A DNA stretch of 64,000 nt from Candidatus Eiseniibacteriota bacterium (GTDB lineage Bacteria; Eisenbacteria; RBG-16-71-46; CAIMUX01; WJJG01). Where the stretch lies: NCBI GenBank assembly GCA_023129715.1, contig JAGMBO010000044.1, forward strand, positions 62,001 to 126,000, given 5' to 3'. Below, one piece after another: positions 43,483-60,645 of the stretch (position 1 is its first letter; every line of letters starts with the position of its first letter). A model generated the notes under the pieces. It was given only the letters and a program-made list of their open reading frames with translations. It did no database searches and was not told where the DNA came from. The translations under genes and the position numbers were made by a program.

Positions 43483-43581
43483 CTCACTGCACAAGGTTCT
43501 TCTGCTGAGCCCCTGGGGCAGCCTCTCGCTCGGCGTGCGGCGCGGTTCACCAAGGTCGAGACTGCCCCGCTGCGGGTCTCA

Positions 43582-44628
43582 TCAGCGTGTCGCGCGAATG
43601 GCCAGGAAGGGGGCGATGCGCTGGCGGGAGAGCGCGGCGGTCGGATGCTCGGGATCGAGTTCCAGGCAGCGCGCGTATTCCCGGTCGGCCCACTCGGCGA
43701 AGCCGAGCCGTTCGTAGACCAGCCCCAGATTGTTGTGTGCGTGCGCCGGACAGCTGGGTGCTGCGATCGCCATCTCGAGTGCCGCGCGGGCTTGGACGAA
43801 CTCCTCGCGAAGCAGCCAGATCAGGCCGATTCCATTCCAACCCTCCGTGTTCTGGGGATCGATCGCCACGGCCGACTCGAAGGCCCCGAGCGCCTCGTCG
43901 CCGCGGTGCAGATCGAGGAGCGCGAGACCGAGCGCGATCCAGGCGGGGTCGTGCTTGCGATCGAGGCGCAGGGCGCGGTGGGCCGCCCGGTAGGCGAGCT
44001 GAGGCGCTTGCGCCTTCAGATGAGCCCGGGCGAGCGTCGACCAGACCGCCACTCCGCCGGGGTCGGCCAGCGCGGCGCGTTCGAGATGATCGCGCGCCGC
44101 GGCCGTTTCCTCGATGGCCAGCAGGGCTGACCCGGCGACGAAGTGGCCGTCGGCGCCAAGATCCTCGCCGAGCCAGGGATCGAGACGATCGAGGGCGCCG
44201 ATCGCATCGTTGCGGGCCCAGGCCGTCTTGGCCGCTGCGATCGCCGCCGCGCGCGGATCGGCAAGATCTGAATCCTCCATCTCGCTGCCCGGCTGTCGAG
44301 CGGGTTCGCCCATTGCACTGCCTGTCCTGGAGGCCTCCCGATCATTCCACTCGGGGGGTGGAGCCGGGAAGATGGCGCGCGGGTTCGAAGCCTCGGAGTC
44401 GGTTTCCGCGCCGGCGGGAGCGGCCGGGGCCTCCCGGGTTGTGGCCGTGCTCATCGGCTCGGTCGTGGCTTCGCTCCTCTGCGCCGAGGCCTGGGCCGTC
44501 TCCCACGAGGAGTCCTCCGGTGAACAGCCCCAGGGACCGGCAAAGACCAAGTAGGTCACGACGAGCGCGCCCAACACACATGCCGGCGCCTGCCAGAATC
44601 CTCCGCCGGGTTGTTTCCGCCTATTCAT
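43582..44628 (-). CDS. membrane-anchored TPR-repeat protein under probable sigma-54 control
   Basis: A 348-aa protein. The N-terminal hydrophobic segment (APACVLGALVVTYLVFAGPWGC) acts as an anchor or signal; the cysteine lacks a canonical lipobox. A low-complexity Ala/Glu/Ser/Thr linker leads to about five TPR units (AIGALDRLDPWL, AARDHLERAALADP, AYRAAHRALRLDRKHDPAWIALGLALL, AFESAVAIDPQNTEGWNGIGLIWLL, YARCLELDPEHPTAA). Probably periplasmic-facing scaffolding. AGGAAGG precedes ATG 44628. A near-consensus sigma-54 promoter lies 46 bp upstream and the next gene upstream encodes a sigma-54 activator, so this is the likely target of that regulator. The track start at 44964 is read-through. Confidence 0.8.
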   Translation of the reverse strand: MNRRKQPGGGFWQAPACVLGALVVTYLVFAGPWGCSPEDSSWETAQASAQRSEATTEPMSTATTREAPAAPAGAETDSEASNPRAIFPAPPPEWNDREASRTGSAMGEPARQPGSEMEDSDLADPRAAAIAAAKTAWARNDAIGALDRLDPWLGEDLGADGHFVAGSALLAIEETAAARDHLERAALADPGGVAVWSTLARAHLKAQAPQLAYRAAHRALRLDRKHDPAWIALGLALLDLHRGDEALGAFESAVAIDPQNTEGWNGIGLIWLLREEFVQARAALEMAIAAPSCPAHAHNNLGLVYERLGFAEWADREYARCLELDPEHPTAALSRQRIAPFLAIRATR

Positions 44629-44673
44629 CGTGTCCTTCCTCTCCGCGCCGCTGTTGCTTCTGCCCTGGCCTTG

Positions 44674-44691
44674 TTGCAAGGCCCGCGCCAG
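44674..44691 (-). promoter_or_regulatory. sigma-54 (-24/-12) promoter of the TPR gene
   Basis: On the minus strand CTGGCGCGGGCCTTGCAA matches the consensus YTGGCACGrNNNTTGCW at all but one position, with exact GG-N10-GC spacing. Predicted transcription start near 44663, about 35 nt before the ATG at 44628. Confidence 0.75.
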
Positions 44692-44750
44692 CGTCGGCCT
44701 AGTGACGCCGAACGGCATCGGCCGCCGTCGCAACCGACGCTCTCGCTGGG

Positions 44751-44760
44751 CACTGCAGTG
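44751..44760. promoter_or_regulatory. palindrome at about -90 of the sigma-54 promoter
   Basis: CACTGCAGTG is a perfect 10-bp palindrome centred about 90 bp upstream of the predicted start, the usual range for an enhancer-binding protein site. Further up, CTCCG-AGCG-CGGAG (about 44879-44892) is a second dyad. Binding by the adjacent regulator is inferred. Confidence 0.35.
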
Positions 44761-44909
44761 AGACGGGGGAGGAGCGATGGGTGGAGGCGGATGCACGGTC
44801 AACTCGCGGGCGCACTCAGCGCGTGGAGCGGCTGCGACGCCTGTGGTCGAGGAGTGTCGCCGGGACGCCGCACTCGATCTCCGAGCGCGGAGTGCGTGCA
44901 TACGATGCG

Positions 44910-46493
44910 CTAGGTCTCGTCGCCGGGGCGCTTCAGATCGTGCGCGACGATCTTGCGGTGGCACGTCGTGCGGTCGAGTCCGAGTCGCTCCGCCGCGCGG
45001 GTCACATTCCAGCCGGTGCTGGTCAGCGCCTCGAGCAGGTGGCGCTTCTCGAGGTGCCAGAAGGCTTCATCCATTGTCGCTCGCCGCGGAATCGCAAGCG
45101 TGTAGCCGTCACCCGAGTTGCCGGCCGCCGCTGGGGTACTGGGCAAACCAGCCGTTGTGGCACTCGGCGAAGCAGCCGTTGCGGCACTGGGCGAAGCAGA
45201 TGCTGTGGCACCGGGCGAAGCAGATGCTGCGGCACTGAGCGAAGCAGATGCTGTGGCACTGGGCGAGGCAGTCGCCGCCGGGCTCGGCGAGACGGCGCCG
45301 GGCGTCGCCGCCAGGGCCGTCTCGAGATCCTCGACGGTCAGGGGGTTCGAGCGCGTCAGGATCAGCGCCCGCTCGACGACGTTGCGCAGCTCGCGGACAT
45401 TGCCGGGCCAGCCATGGGCTTCGAGGCGCACGATCGCCTCGGGCGAGAGCGTGCGGGGGGCAATGTGCTCCTCCTGCGCGAAGCGCGCGGCGAAGTGCTC
45501 CGCAAGGGGGACAACGTCCTCGCGGCGCTCGCGCAGGGGGGGGACGTGGACGATGATCACCGCCAGGCGATGGTAGAGATCGAAGCGGAACCGCTCGGCC
45601 TTGATCTCGCTCTGCAAGTTCCGGTGCGTCGCGGCGACGATCCGCGGCCGGGCGGCAATCGTCTTCTCTCCACCGACGCGGCGGATGGTGCCTTCGTCGA
45701 GCGCGCGCAGCAGGCGCGCCTGCATGGAGGGAGGCATCTCGCCGATCTCATCAAGGAAGAGCGTGCCTCCATGCGCCTGCTCGAAGAGACCATGATGGCG
45801 AGCGACAGCGCTGGTGAAAGCGCCCTTCTCGTGCCCGAAGAGCGTCGACTCGGCGAGATCGCGGGGCACGGCGGCGACGTTGAACGCGATCCAGGGACCG
45901 TCGGGGTTGGGGCCGCGCTGATGGAGGAGGCGGGCGATTTCCTCCTTGCCGACGCCGCTCTCGCCGGTGATCAACACCGGCGTGCGCCGCGGGGCGACCA
46001 GGGCGACGCGTTCGAGCAGTGCGCGCATGGCGGGGCTCTCGACGATCAGCTTGCGCGGCCGCTCTCCCGCGGCGCGTAGCCGGCGGTTCTCATCTTCCAG
46101 CCGCCGGCGCTCGAGAGCGTTGCGCAGCGAGAGCAGGATGGCCTCGGCGCGGGGCGGCTTCTCGAGGAAGTCGAAGGCGCCCCGGCGGGTCGCATCGACG
46201 GCGAGCGAGACATCTCCCCGCCCCGAGATCATCACCACGGGCAGTCCCGGGTGGCGTTTGTGCAGGGCAGTGAGCAGGTCGAGCCCCGTGCCGTCCGGCA
46301 GGTAGACATCGAGCAGGGCGGCATCGGGAAGGGGTGGCCGGGCCATGCGCGCGAGCGCTTCGGCGACCGATCCGGCTGTGGTCACTCGGAAACCGCCGCT
46401 GTCCAACAGCGCCTCGAAGGCGCGCTGGTCAGCCGCTTGGTCGTCGACGACCAGAATCAAGGGGCGATGCTCCGGTGTGCTCCTTTTCATCAT
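44910..46493 (-). CDS. NtrC-family sigma-54 response regulator with GAFTSA loop and repeat linker
   Basis: A 527-aa regulator. Receiver domain (residues 10-130) with acidic pocket VVDD, phospho-acceptor D62 (ALLDVYLPDG) and lysine in FLEKP. AAA+ domain with Walker A GESGVGKE, Walker B GGTLFLDEIG and the sigma-54 contact loop GAFTSA in place of GAFTGA. A linker of about 55 residues made of 8-aa Ala/Ser/Pro repeats precedes a Fis-type helix-turn-helix (NVTRAAERLGLDRTTCHRKI). AGGAAGG lies before ATG 46493. The kinase is directly upstream. Its probable target is the TPR gene downstream. Confidence 0.9.
   Translation of the reverse strand: MMKRSTPEHRPLILVVDDQAADQRAFEALLDSGGFRVTTAGSVAEALARMARPPLPDAALLDVYLPDGTGLDLLTALHKRHPGLPVVMISGRGDVSLAVDATRRGAFDFLEKPPRAEAILLSLRNALERRRLEDENRRLRAAGERPRKLIVESPAMRALLERVALVAPRRTPVLITGESGVGKEEIARLLHQRGPNPDGPWIAFNVAAVPRDLAESTLFGHEKGAFTSAVARHHGLFEQAHGGTLFLDEIGEMPPSMQARLLRALDEGTIRRVGGEKTIAARPRIVAATHRNLQSEIKAERFRFDLYHRLAVIIVHVPPLRERREDVVPLAEHFAARFAQEEHIAPRTLSPEAIVRLEAHGWPGNVRELRNVVERALILTRSNPLTVEDLETALAATPGAVSPSPAATASPSATASASLSAAASASPGATASASPSAATAASPSATTAGLPSTPAAAGNSGDGYTLAIPRRATMDEAFWHLEKRHLLEALTSTGWNVTRAAERLGLDRTTCHRKIVAHDLKRPGDET
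45135..45302. repeat. 24-bp minisatellite within the sigma-54 regulator linker
   Basis: About six to seven in-frame copies of a 24-bp unit (GGCACTGGGCGAAGCAGATG plus 4 bp on the plus strand). Copies start at 45135, 45159, 45183, 45207, 45231 and 45255, with a decayed copy after. On the coding strand it gives PSATASAS-type octapeptides. Copies differ at 1-5 positions. Confidence 0.85.
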
Positions 46494-46537
46494 GCGCCCT
46501 TCCTGTGCCGATTCCTCATGCGCCCTTCCCGTGCCGA
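46491..46537 (-). repeat. 26-bp tandem duplication of the kinase stop / regulator start junction
   Basis: CATGCGCCCTTCC-[T/C]-GTGCCGA occurs at 46491 and again at 46517 (plus strand). On the coding strand the copy overlapping the kinase stop reads GGGCGCATGA and the second copy is the regulator's own start. Between them an ATG at 46519 opens a 9-codon ORF (MRNRHRKGA) whose TGA overlaps the regulator ATG. Confidence 0.75.
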
Positions 46538-48075
46538 CGCGGCGTCTCGTCGCGATCGGCGAGCGGCAACCAGAGATCGAACGCCACTCCATCCGGTGTA
46601 TTGCGGTAGCGCAGGTCGCCCCCCAATTGCAGCGCGATGCTGCGGGCGATGGCAAGTCCGAGCCCGCTGCCCCCTGCCTTGGTCGTTGCCCCTCCCTGGA
46701 ACATGCGGGCGCCGATCTCGGCGGGGATCGGCTCGCCGGCGTTCCAGACGGTCATCCGCACGTAGGTGCGCTCGCCGGCCGGCCCCTCGACCTCGGCGGT
46801 CGGATCGGCGACCTCGATGCGCAGCGCTCCCTCGCCCGCCGCTTCCAGCGCGTTGCGCAGGAGATTGCCCACGGTGCGTTCGAGGCGTGCCGGATCGACG
46901 GCGACGCAGTGTGCCTCGCCGGCCCCGAGGAGAGGGATCGCTCGTGCCGGCGCCCAGCGCCGGGCGACGGCGGGGATCCATGTCTCCAGAACGATGCGCC
47001 GCGGGATGCCTTGGGGCAAGCGCGCGAAGTCGGAGAACTCCTCGAGCAGCACCTCCGCGGAACCTAGGGCCTGGAGCGCCTCGCGGATCAGTTCCGGATT
47101 CGGCGGGCGTTCGCCTCCGGCGCGCGTGGCGAGCTCCAAGCTGATCCGCACGGGGGTGAGCGCGTTGCGCACCTCGTGCGCCAGAGCGCGCCCGGCGCTG
47201 CGCCAGCCGGCGAGCCGGCGCGCGGCTTGCAGACGGATCGCAAGGCGCGTCCGGCGATGGGCCAGCTCGCTGAGCAGTTGGGACAACGCGTCGGGGTCGG
47301 CCACGTGCGTGGCTGACAGGTGCTCGGGGAAGAGACGCCGGGCGTGGTGCTGCAACCCGGCGAGGGCGCGATCCGCGGAACGGCCCGCCCAGAGCAGGCC
47401 GGCGAAGACGATCAGCACGCTTCCGGCAATCCAGGCGAGCGCGGCCCAGCCGGTGCGATGCGGCGGGTCGGCCGCACAGAGCCCGTAGGACGCCGATTCC
47501 TCGAGCGGGAGCACGAAGAGCACGGGCGAGGTCTCCTCGCCGATTCGCGCGAGGCGCCAGGGGGAGAAGAACGGATCATCGAGAAAGACGCCGCTGACGA
47601 GTCGCAGGCCGCCCTCCGGTCCGAGCAGTCGCTCGGTAACCAGGGCGAGCCGGCTCCGGCGCGCCAGCGGTTCCTCGACGATCCAGAACTCTCCGGCGCC
47701 GGGTTGGGTGAGCGGCATGCCGACGCTCGCCGGCCAATGGGCCGAGGCGAGCACGCGCCCCCGCGGGTCCATCACCCGGCAAACGGGCCGTTGGAGCCGG
47801 GCGGCGGTCCGTTCGATCCAGGGTCGCCACTGCGTTTCTCCCTGCGCGGCTGTGGGAATCGGGGTCGGGAGGGGGGCGGCGCGATCGCAACGCAGGGCCG
47901 CCTCCGTTCGCTGCCACCATTCGACGGCGGCGGCGCGCTGGTTGCTGCTTGCCGCGCGGTGCGCCTCGCGCACCGCCATCCACCCGGCGGCGGCGACGAA
48001 CAGGGCCAGCAACAGGGCGCCGGGAAGGAATGGGAACCGCACGCCGCGCGCGCGTCGCGGGGCAGGCGAGCTCAT
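46516..48075 (-). CDS. membrane sensor histidine kinase of the first sigma-54 system
   Basis: A 519-aa kinase with two membrane segments (FLPGALLLALFVAAAGWMAV and ALAWIAGSVLIVFAGLLWAG) bounding a periplasmic sensor of about 190 aa with no family I recognise. The H-box is LAHEVRNALTPVRI, where the usual HE-x-RNPL has Ala for Pro, then N-box NLLRNALEA and G-box GGSGLGLAIARS. The ATG at 48075 overlaps the alr stop (ATGA). It ends at the duplicated junction before its response regulator. Confidence 0.88.
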   Translation of the reverse strand: MSSPAPRRARGVRFPFLPGALLLALFVAAAGWMAVREAHRAASSNQRAAAVEWWQRTEAALRCDRAAPLPTPIPTAAQGETQWRPWIERTAARLQRPVCRVMDPRGRVLASAHWPASVGMPLTQPGAGEFWIVEEPLARRSRLALVTERLLGPEGGLRLVSGVFLDDPFFSPWRLARIGEETSPVLFVLPLEESASYGLCAADPPHRTGWAALAWIAGSVLIVFAGLLWAGRSADRALAGLQHHARRLFPEHLSATHVADPDALSQLLSELAHRRTRLAIRLQAARRLAGWRSAGRALAHEVRNALTPVRISLELATRAGGERPPNPELIREALQALGSAEVLLEEFSDFARLPQGIPRRIVLETWIPAVARRWAPARAIPLLGAGEAHCVAVDPARLERTVGNLLRNALEAAGEGALRIEVADPTAEVEGPAGERTYVRMTVWNAGEPIPAEIGARMFQGGATTKAGGSGLGLAIARSIALQLGGDLRYRNTPDGVAFDLWLPLADRDETPRRHGKGA

Positions 48076-49259
48076 GAGCGCGAGCCTCGCAGCACGCGGG
48101 GCAGATGCCGGCCGATGCGGGTGACGATCTCGTAGTTGATCGTTCCGCACAGCGCGGCAAGCGTGTCGGCGCTCACCGACTCGCTGCCGCTGCGGCCGAT
48201 CAGGATCACCTCTGCTCCGAGATCGGCTTCAGGGATGTCGGTGACATCCACCATGGTCATGTTCATGCAGACCCGTCCGACGATCGGCGCGCGGCGTCCG
48301 TGAACGAGCACATGACCGCGCCCCGAGAGGTGACGATCGTAGCCGTCGTAGTAGCCGACCGGCAGGACCGCCAGGCGCATCGCCCGCGTCGTGCGGAACG
48401 TGCACCCATAGCCGACGTACTCCCCATCCGGAACGTCCTTGATCTGGGCGATGCGCGTCTTCCAGGAGAGGGCCGGGACAAGTTCCGGTCCCATCCGGTG
48501 GGAGAGCAGAGTCGAGAGGAACGTCTCGCGCGAGGGCCACAGTCCGTAGCTGGCGATGCCGAGCCGCACCAGGTTGCCATGGGTCTGTTCCATGACGATC
48601 GCGGCGGCCGAACAAGCCGAGTGCACCAGATCGGGCTCCAGCCCCGCCTCGGCGAATCGCCGCTGGATATCGCGGAGCCGGGCGAGCTGCTGGCGGGCGA
48701 TGGTGTGATCGGTCGTATCTTCGATGTTGGCGTAGTGCGTGTGCAGGCCACGGAAGCGCATCGCGGGATGCTGCTCGAAGAAGCAGCCCCATTCAGGGAT
48801 CTCATCGGGCAGGATGCCCTGGCGGTGCGTGCCCGTCTCGGCCTTCACGTGGAGCGCGACGCGGCGATCCTGGGCGCGCGCCGCGTCCGCCAGCGCAGCG
48901 GCTACGCGCAGATCGGAGACGGTCACTTCTGCGCCCGAGGCGACAACCGCGGGCGCATCGTCGGGGAGGGTCGGACCCAACAGGCAGACCGGCGTTGCTC
49001 CGGTGAGGTCGGAGATCTCGGCGAACTCCTCGAGCGAATGGACCCCCAGGTAGTCGACGCCTTCGGCGACCGCCAGGGGCGCGATCAAACGGGCGCCATG
49101 GCCGTAGGCGTTCGCCTTGATGACCGCCATGCGCAGCGTGCCCGACTGCAGGACACGGTCCAGTGCGCGCAGATTGTGGCGGTAGGCCGCGGCATCGACT
49201 TCCACCCAGACGGGCGGCGGCCGATCACTGGTTTTCTGGATGCAGGGCGTGCTCGTCAT
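48072..49259 (-). CDS. alr: alanine racemase
   Basis: A 395-aa PLP racemase making D-alanine for peptidoglycan. K48 in MAVIKANAYGHG binds PLP. The catalytic tyrosine region is YVGYGCTFRTTRAMRLAVLPVGYYDGY, and RVCMNMTMVDVTD is also a family motif. The chosen ATG at 49259 overlaps the 3' end of the upstream SBP-like gene by 35 bp and the track ORF starts even further in. Its stop overlaps the kinase ATG. The pairing of a cell-wall enzyme with a two-component system suggests a wall-related signal, by inference only. Confidence 0.93.
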   Translation of the reverse strand: MTSTPCIQKTSDRPPPVWVEVDAAAYRHNLRALDRVLQSGTLRMAVIKANAYGHGARLIAPLAVAEGVDYLGVHSLEEFAEISDLTGATPVCLLGPTLPDDAPAVVASGAEVTVSDLRVAAALADAARAQDRRVALHVKAETGTHRQGILPDEIPEWGCFFEQHPAMRFRGLHTHYANIEDTTDHTIARQQLARLRDIQRRFAEAGLEPDLVHSACSAAAIVMEQTHGNLVRLGIASYGLWPSRETFLSTLLSHRMGPELVPALSWKTRIAQIKDVPDGEYVGYGCTFRTTRAMRLAVLPVGYYDGYDRHLSGRGHVLVHGRRAPIVGRVCMNMTMVDVTDIPEADLGAEVILIGRSGSESVSADTLAALCGTINYEIVTRIGRHLPRVLRGSRS

Positions 49260-57729: not shown

Positions 57730-59147
<1,418 letters not shown>

Positions 59148-59151
<4 letters not shown>

Positions 59152-59208
59152 GTGCGAGGATGAAGCCATGAGTGGGAGGACGAAGCCATGAGTGCAGGGA
59201 AGCCCCCC
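59148..59208 (+). repeat. 20-bp triplicated kinase stop / regulator start junction
   Basis: ATGAGTGCGAGGATGAAGCC, ATGAGTGGGAGGACGAAGCC and ATGAGTGCAGGGAAGCC start at 59148, 59168 and 59188. The first ATGA overlaps the kinase stop, the third is the regulator start. The first two open 7-codon ORFs (MSARMKP, MSGRTKP), each ending in the TGA of the next ATGA, so translation could be passed stepwise. Confidence 0.8.
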
Positions 59209-60645
59209 AAGCGTGCGGCCGGCGGCAAGGACCCGGCGCGGAGCTCCCACCCGGCGCAGGCCCCAGACGTTTCGGCATCCGCCGGGCGGAGCGGGTTCCG
59301 CATTCTGGTCGTCGACGACGAGGCGGAGCTGCGGCGCAACCTCGAGGATCTCTTCGTCGAAGAGGGCTATGCGGTGGCGACCGCTGGATCGGGAGACGAG
59401 GCGCTTGCGGCGCTCTCCGCGGAGCCCTTTGCGCTGGTGATCTCCGACTTGCGCATGCCGCCGCCCGATGGCCTGGAACTGCTGCGCCTGGTTCGGGAAC
59501 ACTGGCCGGAGACCGCCTTCATCCTTTTGACCGCCTACGCCACACTCGATACCGCCCGCGAGGCGCTGCGCGCCGGAGCCCTTGACTACCTGCAGAAGCC
59601 CTATAAGGAATTCGAGATGGTGATGCGCGTTGGACGCATCTACGAGCAGGGCCGCCTGCAGCGCGAACGCGACCTACTCACTGAGCGCGTCGCCGCCCTG
59701 GAAGAAGCGACCCGTTTCGAGAACCTGGTCGCCCGCAGCGCGGCGATGGAGGATGTCTTTGCGCTGGCGCGCAAGGTGGCGGCGAGTACGGCAACCGTGC
59801 TGCTGCGCGGTGAGAGCGGCACAGGCAAGAGCGCGCTCGCCCGCGCGATCCACCTGGCGAGCCCGCGGGCGGCGCAGGCGTTCCTGAGGATCAACTGCGG
59901 CGCGCTGCCCGACGCCTTGCTCGAGAGCGAGCTCTTTGGGCACGAGAAGGGCGCCTTCACCGGAGCCGTGCGCCGCAAGGCGGGGCTCTTCACCGTTGCC
60001 CACGGCGGCACGCTCTTCCTCGATGAGATCGGGGATATCTCTCCGGCGATCCAGTTGAAGCTGCTCCAGGTTATCGAAGAGAAAACCTTTCTTCCGGTCG
60101 GGGGCGTGGAGCCGCTGGAAGTCGACGTGCGCCTGATCGCCGCGACCAACCGTTCGCTCGAGGAAGCGATCGAAGCGGGCGATTTCCGCGAGGATCTCTT
60201 CTACCGCGTCAACGTCTTCCCGATCGTGATCCCCCCCCTGCGGGGACGTCGGGAGGATATCCCCCCGCTGGTGGAATGCTTCTTGAACAAGAAAGGGGTG
60301 GAACGTAGCCGGATCTCCCCGGGAGCCATGGAGGCGCTTCTCCGCCACCCGTTGACCGGGAATGTCCGGGAGCTCGAGAACCTGCTCGAGCGAGCGCTGA
60401 TCGTCGCCGGCGAGGGACCGGTGGAGGAGAGCCAGATCGCGCCTCCGACCCGCATGCCGGCGAGTATCTGCCCGAACGACCTGGAGATACCCGATGAGGG
60501 TCTGGTTCTCGAAGACCTGGAAAAGAGGCTGATCGAGAAGGCGCTGGAGAAGGCGGAAGGGAATAAGAGCCGGGCGGCAGCCCTGCTGGGACTGACCCGC
60601 CGGACGCTCTACTCACGCATGGAGCGCTACGGGATCCAGCTCTGA
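59188..60645 (+). CDS. NtrC-family sigma-54 response regulator
   Basis: A 485-aa regulator. An unstructured N-terminal extension of about 35 residues precedes a receiver with VVDDEAE, phospho-acceptor aspartate in LVISDLRMPPPDG and KPYKEFEM. AAA+ domain with GESGTGKSA, intact GAFTGA (FGHEKGAFTGAVRRK) and GGTLFLDEIG, then a Fis-type HTH (NKSRAAALLGLTRRTLYSRM). The Shine-Dalgarno GGGAGG lies 8 nt before ATG 59188. No strong sigma-54 promoter was found in the downstream gap, so its targets probably lie elsewhere. Confidence 0.92.
   Translation: MSAGKPPKRAAGGKDPARSSHPAQAPDVSASAGRSGFRILVVDDEAELRRNLEDLFVEEGYAVATAGSGDEALAALSAEPFALVISDLRMPPPDGLELLRLVREHWPETAFILLTAYATLDTAREALRAGALDYLQKPYKEFEMVMRVGRIYEQGRLQRERDLLTERVAALEEATRFENLVARSAAMEDVFALARKVAASTATVLLRGESGTGKSALARAIHLASPRAAQAFLRINCGALPDALLESELFGHEKGAFTGAVRRKAGLFTVAHGGTLFLDEIGDISPAIQLKLLQVIEEKTFLPVGGVEPLEVDVRLIAATNRSLEEAIEAGDFREDLFYRVNVFPIVIPPLRGRREDIPPLVECFLNKKGVERSRISPGAMEALLRHPLTGNVRELENLLERALIVAGEGPVEESQIAPPTRMPASICPNDLEIPDEGLVLEDLEKRLIEKALEKAEGNKSRAAALLGLTRRTLYSRMERYGIQL

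Follow-up and report, generated by a model that had tools for sequence, protein, structure and literature searches.

A putative sigma-54 promoter between an NtrC-family response regulator gene and a TPR protein gene

The gene of a sigma-54 activator and the gene of a TPR protein are neighbours on the minus strand, and a near-consensus sigma-54 site is present in the gap between them. This locus raises the question of whether the TPR gene is transcribed from that site under the control of the neighbouring regulator. We consider it likely that the TPR gene is a transcription unit by itself, expressed from a sigma-54 promoter that the adjacent two-component system activates. The features of the locus are listed in Table 1, where positions refer to the window, the whole stretch of 64,000 nucleotides that was analysed.

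Table 1. Features of the locus between the TPR protein gene and the histidine kinase gene.
Feature	Position	Strand	Basis or remark
TPR protein gene, 348 aa, presumed target	43582..44628	-	Pfam TPR_1/TPR_2 above cut-off
Non-coding stretch separating the regulator and TPR genes, with promoter and probable activator sites	44629..44909	-	Codon statistics
Putative sigma-54 -24/-12 promoter element TGGCGCGGGCCTTGCA	44675..44690	-	One mismatch, exact spacing, best-scoring window position
CACTGCAGTG palindrome	44751..44760	-	Centre at about -92 from predicted start; candidate element only
Two more CACTC/GAGTG half-sites	44852-44856, 44813-44817	-	At about -190 and -151
CACTC-N14-GAGTG inverted pair	44871..44894	-	Centre at about -218; weak candidate activator site
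NtrC-family response regulator gene, 527 aa	44910..46493	-	Pfam Response_reg, Sigma54_activat, HTH_8
Sensor histidine kinase gene	46516..48150	-	HATPase_c above cut-off, HisKA just below; start codon uncertain

The -24/-12 element and the genes around it

The sequence-only reading had described a near-consensus sigma-54 site before the TPR gene, and this observation was confirmed. The string CTGGCGCGGGCCTTGCAA was located on the minus strand at 44691-44674. It has one mismatch to TGGCACG-N4-TTGCW, an A to G change in the -24 element, and its GG-N10-GC spacing is exact. The element TGGCGCGGGCCTTGCA is the sole match to TGGCACGNNNNTTGCW in the window at up to one mismatch. The predicted transcript start, derived by setting the C of the -12 GC (44676) as -12, is at about 44664 and gives a leader of about 35 nt to the TPR ATG (44628-44626). 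The distance of about 35 nt that had been claimed holds for this predicted start but not for the element itself, whose -12 end is separated from the ATG by about 46 nt. The element is located within the 281-nt non-coding gap, with a same-strand start codon 3' of it, and no sigma-70-type promoter was found in a search of 43500-46600. Judged from its sequence, it is a genuine-looking sigma-54 promoter.

The upstream gene had been taken to encode a sigma-54 activator, and its domains agree with this. The regulator consists of REC, sigma-54 AAA+, a Ser/Ala/Pro-rich repeat linker, and a Fis-type HTH, the domain set of an NtrC-family response regulator, with all Pfam domains above cut-off. Its scores of 403 of 558.6 bits (ntrC) and 373 of 600 (NtrX) are below the NCBIfam cut-offs, and it was not assigned as NtrC or NtrX proper. 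The linker between AAA+ and HTH is encoded by a 24-nt tandem repeat of about six copies (45127-45275), and it is shorter in the orthologous regulator of another genome, G007. The histidine kinase is the probable partner of this regulator. A second NtrC-family kinase-regulator pair is located at 57730-60645 in the window, with a canonical GAFTGA loop and no strong sigma-54 site nearby. In the TPR protein, a single N-terminal membrane helix, recognised by reading the sequence, precedes the TPR repeats. The protein was not assigned as PilW, Tgl, or any other named TPR protein, with all NCBIfam equivalog scores below cut-off (the best being PilW, 52 of 154 bits).

Sigma-54 sites across the genome and in an orthologous locus

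The proposal depended on the presence of rpoN, and the genome encodes two RpoN proteins that are 28% identical, each with AID, CBD, and DBD. Their genes are located at L001 586-1980 and L002 505-2133. One is in the usual place, between LptB-like and ribosome hibernation factor genes, and the other RpoN carries a long charged C-terminal tail.

At up to one mismatch, 50 sites were found genome-wide compared to 34 for the reversed pattern. Genes were called with a codon model for which the window served as training set, a method that is crude on short stretches and equal for both sets. On these calls, 32 of the 49 other sites fall between genes and 16 are followed within 250 nt by a start on the same strand, compared to 5 and 1 of 29 reversed-pattern controls. 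These counts suggest that chance accounts for about a tenth or less of the well-placed sites. The G007 counts are 23 intergenic and 11 well-placed sites out of 30.

The sites also tend to follow activator genes. Eight of the 50 sites, counting the site in question and one site (C14) inside a called gene, follow a same-strand activator AAA+ domain by no more than 1 kb (248-993 nt), where 0.27 would be expected and none of the 34 controls does so. The genes that come after such sites include one for a type IV pilin-like protein, dnaK, and a probable flagellar rod gene (flgB), the latter two names being read from sequence. For the pilin-like gene, the site follows the activator AAA+ domain at 736 nt and precedes the gene by 109 nt. 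Pilin-like and flagellar rod genes are known kinds of sigma-54 target. For this genome, the rule is that a sigma-54 promoter should be sought directly downstream of activator genes.

Other sites were observed in the same search. The sigma-54-like sites at L044 533-548 and L078 1986-2001 precede dnaK and an Hsp20 gene, which are unusual sigma-54 targets, and the dnaK site is directly downstream of an activator gene. Two divergent perfect-consensus sites are located at L033 1501-1516 and 1757-1772, and neither of the genes behind them has a Pfam match.

The locus is conserved in G007, which belongs to the same order and another family. G007 keeps the gene order exonuclease, SBP-like protein, alr, histidine kinase, response regulator, gap, and TPR gene. 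Between the two genomes, identity is 42% for the regulators and 40% for the TPR proteins, the latter over 136 residues. The G007 gap contains TGGAACACTCCTTGCC at the matching place, with GG-N10-GC spacing and TTGC and with three mismatches to the full consensus. The leader from this site to the TPR ATG is about 64 nt. A site of this quality arises by chance in 2% of simulated gaps, and it ranks only fourth in its 16 kb in the matrix scan. When further orthologous loci were sought with the histidine kinase among 39 relatives, the order, the phylum (47 genomes), and GTDB contigs, only the G007 locus was found.

Alternative readings and candidate activator sites

The first alternative is that the sigma-54 promoter is real but is served by one or more other activators, with the neighbouring regulator acting elsewhere. 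About 26 strong activator-domain matches are present in the genome, and the neighbouring regulator has an unusual sigma-54 contact loop. The loop was read directly as GAFTSA, where the canonical form is GAFTGA. The orthologous regulator of G007 has GAFTGA. The other activator loops read in the genome are mostly GAFTGA, with four GAFTDA (L162, L163, L167, and L173) and one each of GAYTGA and GSFTGA, and GAFTSA was absent from all other activators of the genome with a readable loop. Against this alternative stand the strong genome-wide tendency of sites to be directly downstream of activator genes and the regulator-TPR adjacency kept in G007. We regard it as unlikely and infer direct activation by the neighbouring regulator.

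The gap was also searched for sites that the regulator may bind. A palindrome near -90 had been pointed out. Its position was correct (CACTGCAGTG), but a role as the site of the regulator found no support. Three CACTGCAGTG palindromes at up to one mismatch are present in the window where 1.3 are expected, which is not beyond chance, the 11-nt extension GCACTGCAGTG has a single copy in the whole genome, and the palindrome is absent from the orthologous G007 gap. For lack of recurrence and conservation, CACTGCAGTG has no support as the binding site of the regulator. The 5-mer most enriched across both orthologous gaps is GAGTG/CACTC, with 4 and 3 copies. Its joint p of 2.2e-5 uncorrected rises to about 0.01 once 512 words are corrected for, for a word that was picked after looking and that has one G007 copy inside the promoter element. 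These half-sites are a weak lead to the activator site, and a better one than CACTGCAGTG. Alternatively, the CACTC-N14-GAGTG pair might form a hairpin in the RNA 3' of the regulator gene, for which the predicted fold was no better than that of shuffled sequences. No known RNA element was found in an Rfam search of the gap.

The second alternative is that the element matches the consensus by chance, as may happen in GC-rich DNA, with the TPR gene read through from an alr-HK-RR operon or transcribed from an unrecognised promoter. The A to G mismatch raises the GC content of the site, the pattern by itself exceeds its genome-wide control only modestly (50 compared to 34), and a search of the gap for intrinsic terminators found none. 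At two mismatches, TGGCACGNNNNTTGCW has 10 matches in the window where 8.2 are expected, so the pattern alone proves little in GC-rich DNA. However, the position, score, and neighbourhood of the site argue against chance. In a scan with a matrix built from 27 well-placed intergenic sites, drawn from this genome and from G007, with the site in question left out, it ranks first of 127,970 window positions at 15.1 bits, with the runner-up at 12.7 and the weakest training site at 15.5 bits. This score is reached in 0.1% of simulated gaps with equal length and composition. The G007 site at the matching place also argues against chance, and the gap is long for an operon. We find this alternative very unlikely.

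That the TPR protein starts further upstream, in a frame open to 44964 that would place the element inside coding sequence, is hardly conceivable and was rejected, given that the in-frame extension scores -57 in codon usage, with a third-position GC of 0.67 compared to 0.8 in the gene, the chosen ATG has a good Shine-Dalgarno sequence (GAGAGGAAGG) and the membrane helix, and a stop codon is present in the upstream frame of G007.

Proposed mechanism and comparison with known systems

The reading as a regulator-linked sigma-54 promoter is supported at the level of sequence. In the proposed mechanism, RpoN-RNA polymerase would wait at the TGGCGCGGGCCTTGCA promoter as a closed complex. The kinase would phosphorylate the response regulator, which would bind within the gap upstream of the promoter and form a hexamer. 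The regulator would then open the complex by ATP hydrolysis via its GAFTSA loop, and the TPR gene would be transcribed as a separate unit. It might even be that alr-HK-RR-TPR is an undescribed conserved sigma-54-controlled cell-envelope module in which the natural GAFTSA partly frees the regulator from its signal, as Ser does in NorR, a conjecture that we hold to be quite unlikely.

The loop has counterparts in studied activators. In NorR, replacement of the second Gly of GAFTGA by Ser, the same change as seen here, keeps activity and partly frees the protein from control, and G266D, the counterpart of GAFTDA, is constitutive (PMC2941729). However, NorR is a GAF-domain activator and its Ser form is a laboratory mutant, whereas this regulator carries the Ser naturally and has a receiver as its control domain. 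Desulfovibrio vulgaris resembles this genome in having many NtrC-family response regulators with listed targets at neighbouring locus numbers; its GAFTGA loop variants are common (12 of 37) and many are thought functional, but GAFTSA is absent from the eight activation-compatible variants listed (PMC4641369). GAFTSA is therefore probably no strong argument against function, because the NorR Ser mutant is active and many D. vulgaris variants are thought functional. A literature search for GAFTSA, with most subscription journals outside its coverage, found no paper. The natural GAFTSA is a useful test of how much the sigma-54 contact loop can vary.

The regulator-adjacent sigma-54 promoter is a familiar bacterial switch, here in a little-studied lineage and recurring several times in the genome, and the locus provides that lineage with a concrete and testable regulator-target pair. 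In the pilS-pilR-pilA type of arrangement, a kinase gene and an NtrC-family regulator gene are followed by a sigma-54 promoter before the target gene. The locus described here has the same order and the same spacing logic, and the pilS-pilR-pilA type itself is seemingly present in this genome too, with a pilin-like gene behind an activator. Unlike that arrangement, this locus has a TPR protein rather than a pilin as its target, and neither its sensor nor its regulator reaches the cut-off of any named equivalog.
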